Shown here one piece after another: positions 1,965 through 56,988 of a DNA stretch of 60,570 nucleotides (position 1 is its first letter; every line of letters begins with the position of its first letter). The position numbers and the translations under genes are program-made. Source of the stretch: an uncultured Campylobacterales bacterium (GTDB taxonomy: Bacteria; Campylobacterota; Campylobacteria; Campylobacterales; Sulfurimonadaceae). The notes beneath the pieces are model-generated. The model was not told where the DNA came from and ran no database searches. It worked only from the letters and a program-made list of their open reading frames with translations. The stretch spans positions 1 through 60,570 of the forward strand of contig CAISHH010000135.1 of the NCBI GenBank assembly GCA_903885085.1. The letters are read 5' to 3'.

Positions 1965-4900
1965 TTAACATTTTGCGATGTGCTGTTTTACGAAAACCTC
2001 AAATTCACTCGCTGGGATCGGCCTGCTAAAGTAATATCCTTGTATCTCATTACAGCCGTTTTGTTGTAAAAACTCTAACTGATCTCTTGTCTCCACACCC
2101 TCCGCAATCGTTATCATGTTAAGATTGTGAGCCATACTGATTATTGTTTTGACAATATTTCTATCATCAAGATTTTCATTAATATCACAAATAAAGGATT
2201 GATCTATTTTCAGTTTATATACGCTGAATTTTTTGAGATAACTCAAAGATGAATATCCAGTTCCAAAATCATCGATTGACATTCGTATCCCATGACTGTG
2301 AAGCTCATTCATAATAGCTATAGCATCCATTGGATCTTGCATCGTAATACTTTCTGTAAGCTCCAACTCAAGATACTCGGATGAAACTCCACTCTCTTCT
2401 AACGCACTTAAAACTAGAGAGATAAGTTTAGGATGGCGAAATTGAACAGCTGAGAGATTGATAGCCATAAGAAAAGGTTTCATTCCTTCATCTATCCACT
2501 TTTTCAGCTGCTCTAAGGCAGTACGAAGCACCCACTCGCCAATGGCAATAATTTGTCCACTACTTTCTGCAATAGGGATAAACTCTGCTGGAGAAACCAT
2601 TCCAAGTGTTGGATGTTTCCAGCGAAGCAAAGCTTCACTTCCAACTAATTTCTCTGTCATCGCATCGATCTGCGGCTGATAATAAACCTCTAATTCATCA
2701 TTCTCTATTGCCTGACGTAAAGCATTTTCAATTTGAAGATTACGAGCTGCACTTATTTGAAGTTCAGAAGTATAAAAACGATAGCAGTTTCGCCCATCAT
2801 TTTTTGCACGATACATCGCAACATCAGCGGCTTGAAATAAAGTCTGAAAATCTTTACCATCCATCGGGTACATGGCAATTCCGATGGATGGAGTAACTGT
2901 AAGATCATGATCTTCAATCTGATATACTTGAGAGATAATATGTGTCACCTTTTCAGCGAAATGAATAGCTCCATCAACGTCAGCGTCTGGAAGCAGAATA
3001 ACGAACTCATCACCCCCTTGACGAGAAAGAGTATCGCCATATCGTGTAATCAACTTCATGCGTGAAGCAATTTCAACCAAAAGAGTGTCACCCACAGAGT
3101 GTCCAAGCGTATCGTTAATATTTTTAAAATGATCCAGATCAAGAAGCATTACCGCTAGTGAAGTATCTGTTCTATCGGCAATACTAATTGCATGCTGAGC
3201 CCTATCGTTAAGTAATAGTCTATTTGGCAATCCCGTCAAAGCATCAAAATGCGCCAACCACTCAACTTGATCCTGCGCTGTTTTTTGAGCCGTAACATCT
3301 TGCATTGAACCGCGAATGCGAATGACTTCCCCATTTTCGATAGCCGGAGTACCAATGGTACGTATCCATTTATCATTTCCCTTGAGCGTTCTCATCTGAA
3401 GTTCCAAATCATAAGGAGTATGATCCATAACAGCTAGATCTATAGCATTTTTGATTTTTTGAAGCCACTCACCGTGATAGACACTAAGCCCTATCTCTAA
3501 AGATGTAAGATCGTTTGGATCCATATCATGAATACGAGACACTTCAGCAGTCCACTCCCCTTCCCCTGTTTTTACATCAAATTCCCATGCTCCTACATGA
3601 GCCATTGCACTCATATCTTCTAAGAGTTTTTCTGTTTTTATTAAGCGATTTTGTGCCTCTTGTTGTTTCGCTTTACGATCAAAATTGTCCATAGCAAAAC
3701 TGAGTTCTGTTGTCATTTCTTGAATTAATTTTTGACTTAATGTATCAAATGCATTCAGGGTGGTAGAATAAAGGGTAAAAGCTCCTATAACTTTGCCGTT
3801 TTGATAAAAAGGGATCGAAGCAGAAGCTTGTAAGCCCATTGTTTTAGCTTTTTCCTGCCACGGAGCCGTAGAAGGATCATTCATAAAATCCTGACACCAA
3901 ACTGGATGTTTTTCACGAACGGCAGTACCAGTAGGTCCTTGTCCAAAAAGAACATCCCCGCGGGTAGAAATTTCGATTTCATCAAGATAATGATGCACAT
4001 CTCCGTAAGAAGCAGCGAGACATATCGTCTCCTCTTGCTTATCGACAAGACCTATCCATGACATACTCATCCCACCGAGGGTAACGGCATATTTACAGAT
4101 CTGCTCAAAAAGCTCTTGGGGATTTAGTGCATGGATAATCACCTGATTACATTGACTCAAAGTTGCATACATCTGAGTCAGTCGCTGTATAGATATTTTG
4201 TCTTTATTTTGCTGAGTTATATCGATCATAGAAGCTATTGTTTGACCGCTATCTGGTAAATAAACAGCAGTAACAGATCCCAGTCCCTTTTTTCCCTTGG
4301 CAGAAACAAAATTAAATTCATACCGATCCGGTATTGTTTCATCAAATGAACGTCTAAGATGATAGGTTTTCATCCGTTCTTTATCTACGTCATCTACAAA
4401 ATTTAAAAAAGAGGTTCCAACCAATGACTCTTTCGATGATTCTGCAAGCTCTAAGAACTGCTCATTAGCTAAAGCAATAGTCCCATCCGCTTCTATAATA
4501 GCCGTACATGTACCGTTTCTTTCAAACAAGGTACGATATCTATTTTCTTGATTTTTAAGATTAGTGATATCGCGTGCAATTCCCAAGATACCGATTAAAT
4601 TATGAGCATCATCATACAAAGGTGTTTTAACCGTCTCGAAAAGACCTCTATATCCGTTATCAGCGAACGTCAGCCACTCTTCATTGCGGCTTGGTCCATC
4701 GGCTTCCATCGCCAAGCGATCATTTACACGGAAAAAATCGGCAAGTTCCTTGTCTACAAAATCGTAGTCTGTTTTTCCAACAATATCTTTTTCTTTACTG
4801 CCAAACAAACGTTCAAACGCAGGGTTGCATGCGAGATAAACTCCATCACTGCTTTTAAGCCAAATTAGATCTTCAATTGTGTCTATAATATCATTGAGCT

Positions 4901-12567: not shown

Positions 12568-12694
12568 TTTTCACAACTTCTTTTTGGGACTACTCTGGTT
12601 TTATTTTAAAACCTCTGAGTCTCAAGCCTTTCTCTAAACTTTAATCTTTTCATAAAATTTATCCACTATAATTCACAAAAAAAATGGATAAACT

Positions 12695-14158: not shown

Positions 14159-15292
14159 TTACGCCCTTACACCCACGGGGCACTTCGAATGTAAGCCTTT
14201 TTTTGCCTCATAAACTATAAATAAAAATGCTAAAAATGCCACTACAGCCGAACTCAAAAAGAGGTATGTACTAAAATACTGATACACATATCCGCTATAA
14301 ATCGCTCCTAAAAATCCACCAAGTCCATAGGTGATACCCAAAAAGAACTGCTGTGCAAGTTTGCGTTTTTTATACAGCGTAAAAAGATAGCTGATTGCCG
14401 CTGAGTGAAACAGTGCAAAAGAGATGGCATGCATAGACTGAGTAAAGAACGAGATGCCAAGACTATGAGGAAAAAGATAGAGTAAAAACCAGCGCAGAGC
14501 CGTCACAAATGTGGCAACCTGAAGAATCATAAGTGCATTTTTTTGCAGGAGTCTGCCTTGAAAGAAAAGCATAAATATCTCCATAATAACGCCAAAACTC
14601 CATAAGTAAATAGTCATATCCATGCTGATGCCATGATCTGTTTCATAGAGAGTAAAAAAGTTATAAAACGGACCAAAACTCACTTGCATAAGCGTGAGTC
14701 CCACCCACAAACTCCAGTGAGAAAAGAGTTTGATCTCTCCACCCTCGCCAATGGCAACATCTTCACTCTCGTCTGTTTCATGTTTTGCTAAAAAGTATCC
14801 AAACAAAGCTGTCATTACACTCACAGAGATAAGATAAAAGATCGCGATATTTGCACTGCTTAAAAACTTTACCAGCACAAGCGCAACGACGATAAAACCG
14901 ATGGAACCAAAAAGACGCACTCTTCCATAACGCTCTTTGGAAATAACGGAAAGTGCCATCACTTCAACATAGGGCAAAAGAAGACTAAGTCCAACACCAA
15001 AGAGGATATTTGTAAAGATAAGCGCATAAAAATTGTGAAGTGTCAAATAAAAAAGAAAGGAGGTTATGATAATAAGTAAAAGCGCGAAATTAAATGTGTG
15101 TCGGCTAAGCTTAAAACCTTTAATAAAAGCAAAAGGAACTAAAAAGCGTACAAGCGGAGCCGTGGCAAAGATGATGCCGATCTGCACTCCATCGTAACCC
15201 ACCATCGCCAATACTTTTGGCAAGAAGATAACATAGATGCCAACAATGGCAAAATAAAAAAAGTAAAAACCCGAAAGTAATAACTGCATCAA
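14159..15292 (-). CDS. MFS transporter
   Basis: About 12 TM segments; PFAFIKGFKLSRHTF, VALSVISKERYGRVRLFGSIGFI. Confidence 0.85.
   Translation of the reverse strand: MMQLLLSGFYFFYFAIVGIYVIFLPKVLAMVGYDGVQIGIIFATAPLVRFLVPFAFIKGFKLSRHTFNFALLLIIITSFLFYLTLHNFYALIFTNILFGVGLSLLLPYVEVMALSVISKERYGRVRLFGSIGFIVVALVLVKFLSSANIAIFYLISVSVMTALFGYFLAKHETDESEDVAIGEGGEIKLFSHWSLWVGLTLMQVSFGPFYNFFTLYETDHGISMDMTIYLWSFGVIMEIFMLFFQGRLLQKNALMILQVATFVTALRWFLLYLFPHSLGISFFTQSMHAISFALFHSAAISYLFTLYKKRKLAQQFFLGITYGLGGFLGAIYSGYVYQYFSTYLFLSSAVVAFLAFLFIVYEAKKGLHSKCPVGVRA
14166..14195. repeat. 30-bp expanded copy of the CTTACA/TGTAAG palindrome
   Basis: CTTACA-CCCACGGGGCACTTCGAA-TGTAAG; 25 of 30 bases identical to 51488-51517. 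Encodes LHSKCPVGV at the MFS C-terminus. Confidence 0.8.
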
Positions 15293-26421: not shown

Positions 26422-28615
26422 ATGTTAAAATCTCTGTCTTCTGGCGTTTCTGGTCTTCAGGCGCACCAAATCGCGATGGATGTCGAATCAAACAACATCG
26501 CTAACGTTAACACTGTGGGGTTTAAATATTCTCGTGCAAACTTTTCAAACCTACTCTCACAAGTAAATCAGATTGCAACCGCACCTCAAGGCGATCTTGG
26601 CGGTAAAAACTCCACAGGTGTCGGTCTTGGAACAACAATCAGTTCTATGACTCGCATCGATTCTCAAGGTTCTGTGCAAAATACCGACAAAAATACCGAC
26701 TGTGCTATCCAAGGCGATGGTTTTTTTGTTGTAAGTAGTGACGCTGGAAAAACAAACTCATTTACCCGTAATGGAGATTTTAGTTTTGATGCATCAGGTA
26801 ACTTTGTAGACAATAACGGCTATGTCGTTCAAGGCTGGCTCCGTGATCCAGTGACTGGAAAAGTTGATTCAACTGCACCAATCGCACCTATAAGTATCCC
26901 TCCAGGACTTACAACTCCTGCTCAGGCAAGTACTCAAGTTGTACTCAAAGCGAATCTTGATTCTGGAGCTACTGTTAATACTTTTGGAGCTATCAGCGCA
27001 CTTGATTCAGTTCATGGAGCAGTCGATTTAAATGGCAATGGGGTACTTGATCTCGGTGAAGCCAACAATGAAACATCAAATATGATTTTACAAGATACGA
27101 ATGGTCTAAGAATTGAACATGCAGAAAATATGAATGTTATGGTCAACGGAAGTGGTCAGGCAATTCTTCTGCAAAATGGTCAAGGTGAAAATATTGGTTT
27201 TAGAAGTGCCCAAGTTGCAGCCTCTACCGCTCCTACTGCCGCTGCAGCTAGCACAATTACTGGTACTGATATTCAAATAAATGGAGTACCTATAGCAGAT
27301 GTTGGCCCATTAACAGGTAGTGCTGTGACAGATGGCAATACTATTGCTGGTGCCATCATCAACAGGTGTTACTGCGTCTGTTGATGCAACTGGTAAGATC
27401 ACTCTTTCAAATGATAATTCTGGAACACACACAAACATAGATCTAGTAGTAGCTGGGACGGGAACAACATCTGGCCTAGTTACCGCTAATGATTCGCCTT
27501 CCAAACAATTTATATATACGGATGGAAGTGTAAATCAAGTTGGATGGAATGCACCTACCAATAGCGTATATTATTTTACAAACAGCGAAGACCTTCGTAA
27601 CGGATTACAAAATCTTGCACAAGATACACAGATGAAGGGAATTGCAGGAGATCTAAATCCAAAAGCTACAGTTACAGTAGATTCGTCTGGAAAATTTCAA
27701 GTATCCAATCCTGATGCGACTGGAAAAAATATTAATATCGCTGTTACACCTTTTACAAGTGCTACGACCATTGCCAATGCAAATTTTGATACTATGATCG
27801 GTGCATTAAGTGGTTCTCTTCCAGCGGGAAGCGCAACAACACGTTCATCTCAAGCCTTTAGTGTGCCAACACACTCTGCGAGTATCGATATTTATGATTC
27901 ACTTGGTTCAAAACACACAGTAAAGGTAGATTTTACAAAATCTTCTTTTGATCCTACAAAAGGAAGTACTTGGGATGTGAGCGTTACAGTTCCACCACCG
28001 AGCACACTTAATCCATCTCCGGCTGGAACTCTAGGTCAACCATCAAATATCGTGCTTGGAACAGTAGAGTTTAATCCGGATGGTTCACTCAAAAATGCGG
28101 GGAATACCATAACAAATCTAACATTTTCAGCAAACAACGGTTCAAAGCCAAATCAACCAATCAATCTTGCTCTAGGTACTACCGGTGCATTTGATGGGCT
28201 GACAAGTTTTGATAGTTCTTCCGCGACATCAGGTATCAGCCAAGATGGTTTTACTGGTGGGGATTTAGTAGGGATTCGTATCGATCAAAGTGGTACTTTA
28301 GTTGGATCATTTACAAATGGTAGAAGTTTTGGCCTCGCACAGATCGCGATGGCAAAATTTGCAAATAATGGTGGTCTTTCTGTTGAGGGTGGAAATCTTT
28401 ATACACAATCAGCAAACTCAGGAGATCCTATCTATGGAACTGCTGCAACTGGTGGACGCGGATTTATCCAAAGTTCTGCGCTTGAGTCGTCAAACGTCGA
28501 TCTTTCACGCTCACTCACAGAGCTCATCGTTATCCAAAGAGGATATCAGGCAAACTCTAAAACTATTACAACTTCGGATCAACTTCTTCAGACTCTAATA
28601 GGTCTAAAACAGTAA
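26422..28615 (+). pseudogene. flgE: Large FlgE-like hook gene, copy 2, interrupted by a frameshift near 27350
   Basis: 26422-27384 has the N-terminus (SGVSGLQAHQIAMDVESNNIANVNTVGFKYS); 27332-28615, one frame over, has the C-terminus (ALESSNVDLSRSLTELIVIQRGYQANSKTI). Confidence 0.83.
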
Positions 28616-35606: not shown

Positions 35607-35685
35607 TCTATCTTACCTTGTAAATTAATAAATATGTTGTTGATTGAGCGTGATGAATGCATCAGCAAAACCACTTAAAAGAGGG

Positions 35686-35695
35686 TTACATGTAA
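35686..35695. repeat. TTACATGTAA copy 7
   Basis: Exact; intergenic, paired with copy 8. Confidence 0.9.
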
Positions 35696-35705
35696 GGATA
35701 AAACC

Positions 35706-35715
35706 TTACATGTAA
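35706..35715. repeat. TTACATGTAA copy 8
   Basis: Exact; intergenic. Confidence 0.9.
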
Positions 35716-35726
35716 GGGGGTATAAA

Positions 35727-39759: not shown

Positions 39760-40997
39760 TAAACGTACCAAAGTTTTTAGAACCTATTATCACAGCTTTA
39801 CAAAACAGTGGTGCTTCACCTATTTTGGTCGGCGGATTTGTAAGAGATTCTCTGCTTGGATTTGCCATCAAAGATATCGATATCGAGGTATATAACATCG
39901 CTGATTTTGATGCGATGATGAAGATTTTAAAGCCTTTTGGAAGTATAAATCTTGTTGGAAAAAGCTTTGGGATTTTAAAACTCTCCTATGCTGGCTATGA
40001 GTTAGACTTTTCTCTTCCTCGACTTGAAAAAAAAACGGGATCTGGACATAAAGGTTTTGATGTTTTGCTTGATCCAAAACTCTCATTTGCTGAAGCTGCC
40101 GCGCGACGTGACTTTACAATAAATGCGATAGGCTTTGATCTTAATAGTCATACTTTACTAGATCCTTACAACGGACAAAAAGATCTAAACAATAAAATAC
40201 TAAGCTATGTGAATAAAGAGACTTTTATAGAAGATCCGCTGCGTGTTTTGCGAGCAGTTCAGTTTTGCGCAAGATTTGGGCTTACATGTAAAGAAGAACT
40301 GATTGAATTATGTCGTTATCTTTGTGAGAAGGGTTTTATAAAAGAACTTCCTAAAGAGCGAATATATGAAGAGTTTTCAAAGCTTTTGCTCAAATCTAAA
40401 AAGCCTTCTATCGGCTTGGCTCTTTTTGAGACATTTGGACTTACAAAATATTTTCCAGAAATCTCCAATAAAAATAATCTATTTGAACATATAGATGTTA
40501 TAACAAATCTTAAAACTGAAAATTCTAAAAGAGATATGGTTTTGATGTTAAGTTTGATAGTTTTGCATTTTGATTTAACCGAAGATGTGGAACTTTTTTT
40601 ACAAAAACTTTTAGATGAAACGCAGATAATAGATGAAGTACTAAATCTTTACATGTACAGATATGCTTTAAATGATCTTGCACAAAAGCCGCTGAGTAAT
40701 TACGATATTCTATTATTGAGCACAAAAACAATAATTCAAAATTTATTGATTTTAGGTGAAGCGCAAGGTAAAGATTTTAAAGAGATAAAAAAGAGAGCAG
40801 AACAACTCAGCGTACTTACATGTAAGCCAAAACCTCTCTTATATGGACGAGATCTTATAGAACTTGGACTAAACCCATCTACTTTATTTTCAACTATTTT
40901 AGAAGTAGCGTATGATGCTCAACTTCAAGAACATTTTACAAATATAAAAGACGCAAAAATATGGCTTAAAAACTATGTTGATGTATTTATCTGTTGA
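39756..40997 (+). CDS. cca: CCA tRNA nucleotidyltransferase/poly(A) polymerase family
   Basis: ILVGGFVRDSLLGFAIKDIDIEVY…RRDFTINAIGFDL…FIEDPLRVLRAVQFCARF. Confidence 0.92.
   Translation: MINVPKFLEPIITALQNSGASPILVGGFVRDSLLGFAIKDIDIEVYNIADFDAMMKILKPFGSINLVGKSFGILKLSYAGYELDFSLPRLEKKTGSGHKGFDVLLDPKLSFAEAAARRDFTINAIGFDLNSHTLLDPYNGQKDLNNKILSYVNKETFIEDPLRVLRAVQFCARFGLTCKEELIELCRYLCEKGFIKELPKERIYEEFSKLLLKSKKPSIGLALFETFGLTKYFPEISNKNNLFEHIDVITNLKTENSKRDMVLMLSLIVLHFDLTEDVELFLQKLLDETQIIDEVLNLYMYRYALNDLAQKPLSNYDILLLSTKTIIQNLLILGEAQGKDFKEIKKRAEQLSVLTCKPKPLLYGRDLIELGLNPSTLFSTILEVAYDAQLQEHFTNIKDAKIWLKNYVDVFIC
40282..40291. repeat. TTACATGTAA copy 9
   Basis: Exact; in cca, LTCK frame (GLTCKEE). Confidence 0.9.
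40816..40825. repeat. TTACATGTAA copy 10
   Basis: Exact; in cca, LTCK frame (VLTCKPK). Confidence 0.9.
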
Positions 40998-51398: not shown

Positions 51399-51857
51399 AT
51401 GAACTCCGTTATTTTTGTTTGTCTAGGAAATATTTGCCGTTCACCTCTCGCTGAGGGGATTGCAAAAAAGTTAGTGCAAGAAAAAGGTCTACACCCAAAG
51501 GGCACTTCGCATGTAAGAGTTGCATCTGCTGGAACTGGTGGCTGGCATGAGGGTGAAGCACCGTGTGCAAACTCTGTCAAAGTCGCTCAAAATAATGGTA
51601 TTGATATTTCTAGTCTAAGAGCTTCTCAGATTACAAAAAAAGATCTTGAAGAGTTTGAGTTTGTTATAGCTTTGGATGAGAATAACTATAATAATTTGAA
51701 AATACTTGGCGCAAAAAATCTCTACAAACTCGGTTCATTTGGATATAACAATCAAGATGTTCCTGATCCTTATTTTTTTAATGGGTTTGAGGGTTTTGAT
51801 AAAGTGTATGAGATGATAGAAGTTTGTGTTAGGAATCTGTTTGAAGAGTTAGCCTGA
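51399..51857 (+). CDS. Low-molecular-weight protein tyrosine phosphatase
   Basis: VIFVCLGNICRSPLAEGIAKK (C-x5-R-S P-loop) and VPDPYFFNGFEGFDKVYEMIE. Confidence 0.94.
   Translation: MNSVIFVCLGNICRSPLAEGIAKKLVQEKGLHPKGTSHVRVASAGTGGWHEGEAPCANSVKVAQNNGIDISSLRASQITKKDLEEFEFVIALDENNYNNLKILGAKNLYKLGSFGYNNQDVPDPYFFNGFEGFDKVYEMIEVCVRNLFEELA
51488..51517. repeat. 30-bp expanded copy of the CTTACA/TGTAAG palindrome inside the LMW-PTP gene
   Basis: TCTACA-CCCAAAGGGCACTTCGCA-TGTAAG; 25 of 30 bases identical to 14166-14195. Confidence 0.8.
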
Positions 51858-56031: not shown

Positions 56032-56988
56032 TTGCCATTTGTCATAAAAAAATTTCATATAGAAGAGAAACAAAAAGCCTTTTTATTTTTAATGCGAGAG
56101 CTAGGGCTTTCTCAAAGTGATGCACAAAGATTTATAGCGCGTAAAAGAGTTTTTGCAAATGGAGACGTTGTAGAAAAAGATAAAGATGAGATAAGTGGTG
56201 ATATAGAGTTCATCACATTTGAGCCAATTACAAGAGGTTTAGAACCGACATTTGAAACAGAGGAGTTTGTTCTCTTTGATAAGCCCACAGGTGTGCTCAT
56301 TCATCCTCAAAATCGCTATACGCCCTATTCTCTTATAGACGAAGTCAAGTACCAATTTGGAATGGATGCAAATATCACGCATCGTATTGATATGGAGACT
56401 AGTGGCCTCGTGCTGTGTGCTAAAAACAAAGAGAGTGAGCGAGATATCAAGATGATGTTTCAAGAAAGAGATATGCAGAAACGATATCTTGCAATGGTTC
56501 GCGGAGAGTTTAAAAATGAGCTTACATGTAAGGAACCTTTGAAGATAAATAAAGATGCTACATCAGGCGTGCTTCGTTCTATCGTAAAAGTTGATGAAAC
56601 GGGTAAAAGTTCTGAGACCTACTTCAAACCTTTAGAGTATTTTAGTGATCTTGATATGACACTTGTTGCTTGTTATCCTCATACTGGAAGACAACATCAG
56701 ATTAGAGTTCATTTGCTTCACGTGAAACATCCGATTGTTGGTGATCCACTTTACGGAGTTGATGAATGGGTAACAACTAAATATTTGGATAGAGAATTAT
56801 CAACGGAAGAACGTTTAAAAATTACAGGAGCATCAAGATTACTTTTGCATGCTGATGAACTTTCTTTTGAATATAAAAATATTTCATATCAAGTGAATAG
56901 TAATGTTAATTTTTTGGATGAGATCTTCAAATCTGTTTCACGTGAAACGAAAGAGAAAAATAAACATAGTTGCGCTAATACTCACTAG
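56032..56988 (+). CDS. RluA-family pseudouridine synthase
   Basis: VLFDKPTGVLIHPQNRYTP…NITHRIDMETSGLVLCAKN…PHTGRQHQIRVHLLHV. Confidence 0.93.
   Translation: MPFVIKKFHIEEKQKAFLFLMRELGLSQSDAQRFIARKRVFANGDVVEKDKDEISGDIEFITFEPITRGLEPTFETEEFVLFDKPTGVLIHPQNRYTPYSLIDEVKYQFGMDANITHRIDMETSGLVLCAKNKESERDIKMMFQERDMQKRYLAMVRGEFKNELTCKEPLKINKDATSGVLRSIVKVDETGKSSETYFKPLEYFSDLDMTLVACYPHTGRQHQIRVHLLHVKHPIVGDPLYGVDEWVTTKYLDRELSTEERLKITGASRLLLHADELSFEYKNISYQVNSNVNFLDEIFKSVSRETKEKNKHSCANTH
56522..56531. repeat. TTACATGTAA copy 13
   Basis: Exact; in RluA-family CDS, LTCK frame (NELTCKE). Confidence 0.9.

Follow-up and report, generated by a model that had tools for sequence, protein, structure and literature searches.

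Results

A 30-bp element in a tyrosine phosphatase gene

The window, meaning the whole stretch of 60,570 nucleotides analysed here, comes from a draft genome in 172 contigs (G000). It contains the following features, all given on the + strand.

51399 to 51857, +: host gene, low-molecular-weight protein tyrosine phosphatase (LMW-PTP), 152 aa (LMWPc, Pfam PF01451, E = 9.8e-34)
51488 to 51517, +: 30-bp element TCTACACCCAAAGGGCACTTCGCATGTAAG, made up of the two palindrome arms and the 18-bp insert; its family has 40 copies in this genome
51488 to 51493, +: left arm TCTACA of the older 12-mer palindrome (12-mer at this site in five relatives)
51494 to 51511, +: inserted 18-bp module CCCAAAGGGCACTTCGCA, exactly the 18 bp missing in orthologs
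51512 to 51517, +: right arm TGTAAG of the older 12-mer palindrome (12-mer at this site in five relatives)
14166 to 14195, +: second 30-bp element CTTACACCCACGGGGCACTTCGAATGTAAG
35685 to 35716, +: pair of 12-mers GTTACATGTAAG...CTTACATGTAAG with 8 bp between them, a terminator-like inverted pair
40815 to 40826, +: bare 12-mer CTTACATGTAAG, an example common to relative G006
56521 to 56532, +: bare 12-mer, an example that reads CTTACATGTAAA in G006

The codons of the first element are CTA CAC CCA AAG GGC ACT TCG CAT GTA, that is L-H-[PKGTSH]-V. A preliminary description of this DNA had reported TCTACA-CCCAAAGGGCACTTCGCA-TGTAAG here, in the frame LH[PKGTSH]V of a tyrosine phosphatase gene; sequence, coordinates and frame are all correct, and the PF01451 match identifies the host as such. 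The left arm is two bases away from the perfect CTTACA. Because 'CA' is common to both sides, the insert breakpoint is uncertain by up to 2 bp, and a unit of 16 bp plus a 2-bp repeat would be equally compatible with the sequence. Read on the minus strand, the 30-mer at 14166-14195 encodes LHSKCPVGV at the C-terminal end of an MFS-like ORF (14159-15292, -). The window also holds 16 copies of the 12-mer CTTACATGTAAG at no more than one mismatch, for an expectation of 0.17.

The hexapeptide PKGTSH is added after the first long helix of the LMW-PTP, before the strand leading to SAGTGGWHEGE, in a loop that had been proposed to be shorter in typical LMW-PTPs and that is indeed shorter in the solved homologs 4etm and 3rof. 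This placement relies on alignment to these two structures because the AlphaFold model of the single window protein, with a pLDDT of 36.6, was unusable. In five relatives (G001, G002, G006, G007 and G012) the gene is 18 bp shorter and carries at the exact site a 12-mer that is either exact or one to two outer bases off; in G003 (CTGGTTGTAAA) and in the outgroup G008 (CTGAATATTCTT) it has the short length and no palindrome. Among the relatives compared, the additional 18 bp are found in the window's genome only. The palindrome therefore originated at this very site, and the insertion of 18 bp followed. Alignment with related LMW-PTPs, which the preliminary description had suggested as a check, thus finds the genus orthologs exactly 18 bp shorter, mostly with the bare palindrome, and bears out the view of a 12-bp palindrome split centrally by exactly six codons. 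The idea of an expanded 30-bp insertion holds for the central 18 bp; the 30 bp did not come as one piece, the 12-mer being older. The two outcomes that would have spoken against an insert, namely a same-length loop of unrelated sequence in orthologs and a lack of further core copies, were not found.

The 30-mer family

A search of the window's genome at no more than three mismatches, proposed at the outset as a way to find further copies of the 18-bp core, returned 40 30-mers, with none for the reversed-pattern control. Within the genus, six out of eight genomes have the 30-mer (G000 40, G001 30, G002 12, G007 12, G006 3, G003 1), and one copy is found in another genus (G012). A looser pattern run over 228 genomes of the family gave matches in the same seven genomes only. 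When about 85,000 species genomes were searched for an exact 26-mer, a scan that may omit records near the window's own genome, matches came only from two environmental MAGs, one of them titled Campylobacterales. The 18-bp module is nearly identical across dozens of 12-mer copies throughout the genome. In the contig G001:C9, three 30-mers lie within 480 bp (26552-27031), two of them inverted relative to each other and separated by about 11 bp; the JAHJGM MAG (L003) has a minus-strand 30-mer near position 4435 and, about 20 bp beyond it, the partial 12-mer GCATGTAAG.

Over 99 copies, variability is highest at positions 5, 10-12, 16 and 20-22, while A17 and T19 do not vary and C18 hardly does. 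Fixed and free positions are sharply divided, which is no proof of a fold. Mini-hairpins of the forms CCC-NNN-GGG and TGC-NNA-GTG fit the variable positions, with too few compensating changes to establish a conserved fold by covariation. An alternative fold was predicted to pair positions 9-13 with 18-22, but the variants contradict it.

ORFs of 110 aa or longer read through 49 of 62 copies without a stop. Four such readings occur: LHPKGTSHV (26), LTPKGHFACK (7) and two antisense ones (8 each), giving a sense to antisense ratio of 33:16 (p = 0.02), an excess that would be expected if tolerance differs between the peptides. The translations point to DapF, RarA and RNase HII among the hosts, together with MurF-like, HypF-like, TrmA-like, heptosyltransferase-like and copper-ATPase-like proteins; Pfam confirmation covers the LMW-PTP only.

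The bare 12-mer palindrome

The exact 12-mer CTTACATGTAAG is found 222 times in G000, 337 times in G001 and 129 times in G006, where 353 copies are counted at no more than one mismatch. Its distribution is patchy though wider than that of the 30-mer, with hundreds of copies in genera g3 and g6 and zero in most. High copy numbers also occur in isolated genomes from other families of the class (G232 193, G370 104, G276 70), most of whose relatives lack the 12-mer; there it may be a horizontally acquired trait. In G006, 69% of the exact copies fall inside ORFs by crude ORF calling, in two of the three frames (LHV 56, LTCK 33), the third having a stop. Among all G006 10-mers, the 10-bp core is outnumbered only by the same sequence shifted by one base. 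It is conserved without change in 16 of 39 alignments, versus 287 of 2441 for other 10-mers of the same composition. Pairs of 12-mers 1-12 bp apart are frequent genome-wide, for example at 12691, 54187 and 664116 of G006:C1; these could form long hairpins and, by analogy with paired uptake sequences, look like terminators. The 12-mers of G000 align mostly gap-free with G006, even where G006 lacks the palindrome, and the comparison shows that base substitution at the site itself creates and erases this highly iterated sequence.

Insertion at the centre of existing palindromes

Forty-nine 30-mer sites from several species were aligned to G006, the sole complete comparison genome (single contig). 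The net length difference was +18 in 32 of them, +19 in 4 and 0 in 2, and at 20 of the 49 sites G006 has the 12-mer core (at most one mismatch) with the 18 bp left out. Control random sites gave a net difference of 0 in 140 of 161 cases and +18 in one, and control 12-mer sites gave 0 in 28 of 39 and +18 in none. Moreover, the outer bases of the arms and of the G006 12-mer are the same at 63 of 80 positions versus 54.5 after shuffling (p = 0.005), an indication that the arms are those of the recipient site and that the centre alone arrives. These alignments show recurrent insertion of the 18-bp module CCCNNNGGGCACTNNGCA into existing 12-mers, precisely in their middle; inside genes the 30-bp form amounts to six codons added in frame. 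In the partial set available, most copies are not common to several species, and the few that are shared seem more conserved than their own flanks.

Two further genes illustrate this history. DapF carries the 30-mer in G000 and G001, the 12-mer in G005, G006, G007, G009 and G026 (reading LHVRTY), and neither palindrome nor insert in the outgroups G008, G010 and G017 (reading R-V-R-T-Y). RarA has the 30-mer in G000 and G002 and a degenerate version of it in G001, and G007, G006 and G003 have none. Read on a three-gene tree with modest supports, the RarA pattern needs losses or parallel gains, as possibly does that of DapF. The G001 RarA copy (L222) has lost its right arm, and a change of CCC to TGT has recreated a 12-mer-like sequence within the insert; a loss of 15 bp is seen near this degenerate 30-mer.

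Discussion

Origin and spread of the module

The recurrence of the same 18 bp at sites with no relation to each other requires another 30-mer as the source of the copy. The most likely route is templated copying in trans from existing 30-mers with the arms as microhomology, a step that we infer. Single-stranded DNA from another 30-mer copy, endogenous or taken up, would serve as donor and would anneal through its CTTACA and (CA)TGTAAG arms; the 18-bp centre would then be copied while the recipient's local arms are retained. New insertions would persist where a six-residue loop is tolerated, and a drive tied to the palindrome, such as DNA uptake, could fix them. Acinetobacter is known to undergo double illegitimate recombination on transformation (cited in PMC8116780). 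This process also has a short-patch form. We give this two-layer explanation, with short-patch templated copying as its mechanism, a probability of about 0.5. Against the copying step stand the shortness of the arms (6-8 bp, the left arm in the window matching over only 4 bp) and the RarA distribution, which implies losses or parallel gains. Furthermore, 12-mers are equally numerous in other genera without such inserts among the matches listed, so that something genus-specific is needed, perhaps only a founding 30-mer.

A dedicated, unrecognised enzyme would give the same traces. The module would then represent a genuine mobile element in its most reduced form, with an enzyme that recognises the 12-mer, cuts it centrally or following CTTAC, and inserts 16-18 nt at that specific site. 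The exact and recurrent target and length, the TTAC on both target strands, the possible 2-bp 'CA' repeat at the insert ends and the confinement of inserts to one genus plus one copy elsewhere all fit such an enzyme, the main rival reading, to which we give clearly less than even odds. Against it, the insert has no terminal inverted repeat and no longer or gene-bearing version appears among the spacings tested. Y1 transposases of the REP/IS200 kind (PF01797) are absent from G000, G001 and G002, with positive controls, and no RVT_1 reverse transcriptase was found in G000, G002, G006 or G007; as G000 is a draft, absence from it is not absolute. Searches for a source of the insert gave no match among viral contigs and no convincing match among plasmids. 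In other 12-mer-rich genera, no spacing that would point to other modules is enriched among the matches listed, and no known transposase accounts for the spread of the module.

Selection offers another reading, in which the 30-mers are functional sites, for instance an extended protein-binding or uptake signal, and owe their abundance to rare insertion followed by fixation through selection or uptake drive. The conservation of the 12-mer above background (16/39 vs 287/2441), the sharp division of fixed and variable positions and the seemingly higher conservation of the few shared copies in the partial set point this way; we consider it improbable given that most copies in that set are not common between species, that four readings in enzymes exclude a common protein role, and that no binding protein is known. 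Very improbable is the reverse course of events, in which the 12-mers are remnants of ancestral 30-mers after a precise 18-bp deletion: RarA, and possibly DapF, do need loss or parallel gain on the small tree, but the LMW-PTP and DapF outgroups are short, the 12-mer occurs in many lineages, and in other genera 12-mers number in the hundreds, with 30-mers practically lacking. Chance resemblance or an assembly artefact, which the 172-contig draft might invite, can practically be set aside in view of the 40 copies versus 0 in the control and of the 30-mers in single-contig G006 and in independent MAGs.

Comparison with known repeats

We know of no description of recurrent fixed insertion at the centre of DUS/USS or HIP1 repeats. 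The 12-mer resembles these repeats in its hundreds of copies, its turnover by substitution in place and its coding as well as intergenic location; its close inverted pairs, 1-12 bp apart, may correspond to DUS-type terminators. The high copy number (129 exact and 353 at up to one mismatch in G006) and in-place turnover (28/39) of DUS/USS are both found here, and by its sequence the 12-mer layer would qualify as an uptake-type or HIP1-type repeat.

The preliminary description had compared the 30-mer with the Rickettsia palindromic elements (RPEs), which are about 150 bp long and MITE-like (PMC10969869). The comparison is sound in that palindrome-related repeated DNA adds an in-frame peptide to unrelated, otherwise conserved proteins (49/62 copies, net +18 versus orthologs). 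It breaks down for size, target and inserted structure, since an 18-bp module, not a unit of about 150 bp inserted whole, enters a pre-existing copy of another repeat and has four stop-free readings; the relation is therefore one of analogy, not membership. The module also differs from MITEs, which have their own terminal inverted repeats and a target duplication: the inverted arms belong to the older 12-mer and the 'CA' at the breakpoint is 2 bp long and ambiguous. REP/BIME sequences, with their Y1 transposases (RAYT), are likewise 20-40 bp long, palindromic and interspersed. The 30-mers differ from them in lying mostly within genes, not extragenically, and in lacking a TnpA-REP (Y1) in the three genomes with 40, 30 and 12 copies. 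Yeast mitochondrial GC clusters such as GC42 are tiny palindromic mobile DNA with high turnover and cluster mergers (PMC4478555). Together with fungal double-hairpin elements they share with the 30-mer a very small palindromic form, high turnover and an open copying mechanism; they are larger, mitochondrial and marked by an AG target duplication, and a relation by sequence would not be expected. In a literature search, neither the 12-mer nor the insert appeared in any of the papers covered, and the shorter ttacatgtaa led to papers with unrelated titles only.

Meaning

To our knowledge, recurrent entry of a fixed insert into the middle of an iterated palindrome has not been described before. 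It is possible, at somewhat less than even odds, that we are dealing with a self-spreading unit of 16-18 bp for which a palindrome iterated throughout the genome serves as dedicated landing site, propagated by an unknown enzyme or by templated short-patch copying. This would be the smallest precisely targeted insertion unit known to us, and one that enters conserved enzymes in frame. How REPs, RPEs, HIP1 and mitochondrial GC clusters are copied is, as far as we know, a question still to be settled; the before-and-after pairs available here at dozens of sites make the copying of tiny repeats directly testable. They also provide a natural series of one six-residue insertion across unrelated proteins. 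If this interpretation is true, the module would be a parasite of a repeat and a source of near-identical hexapeptide insertions across the proteome.
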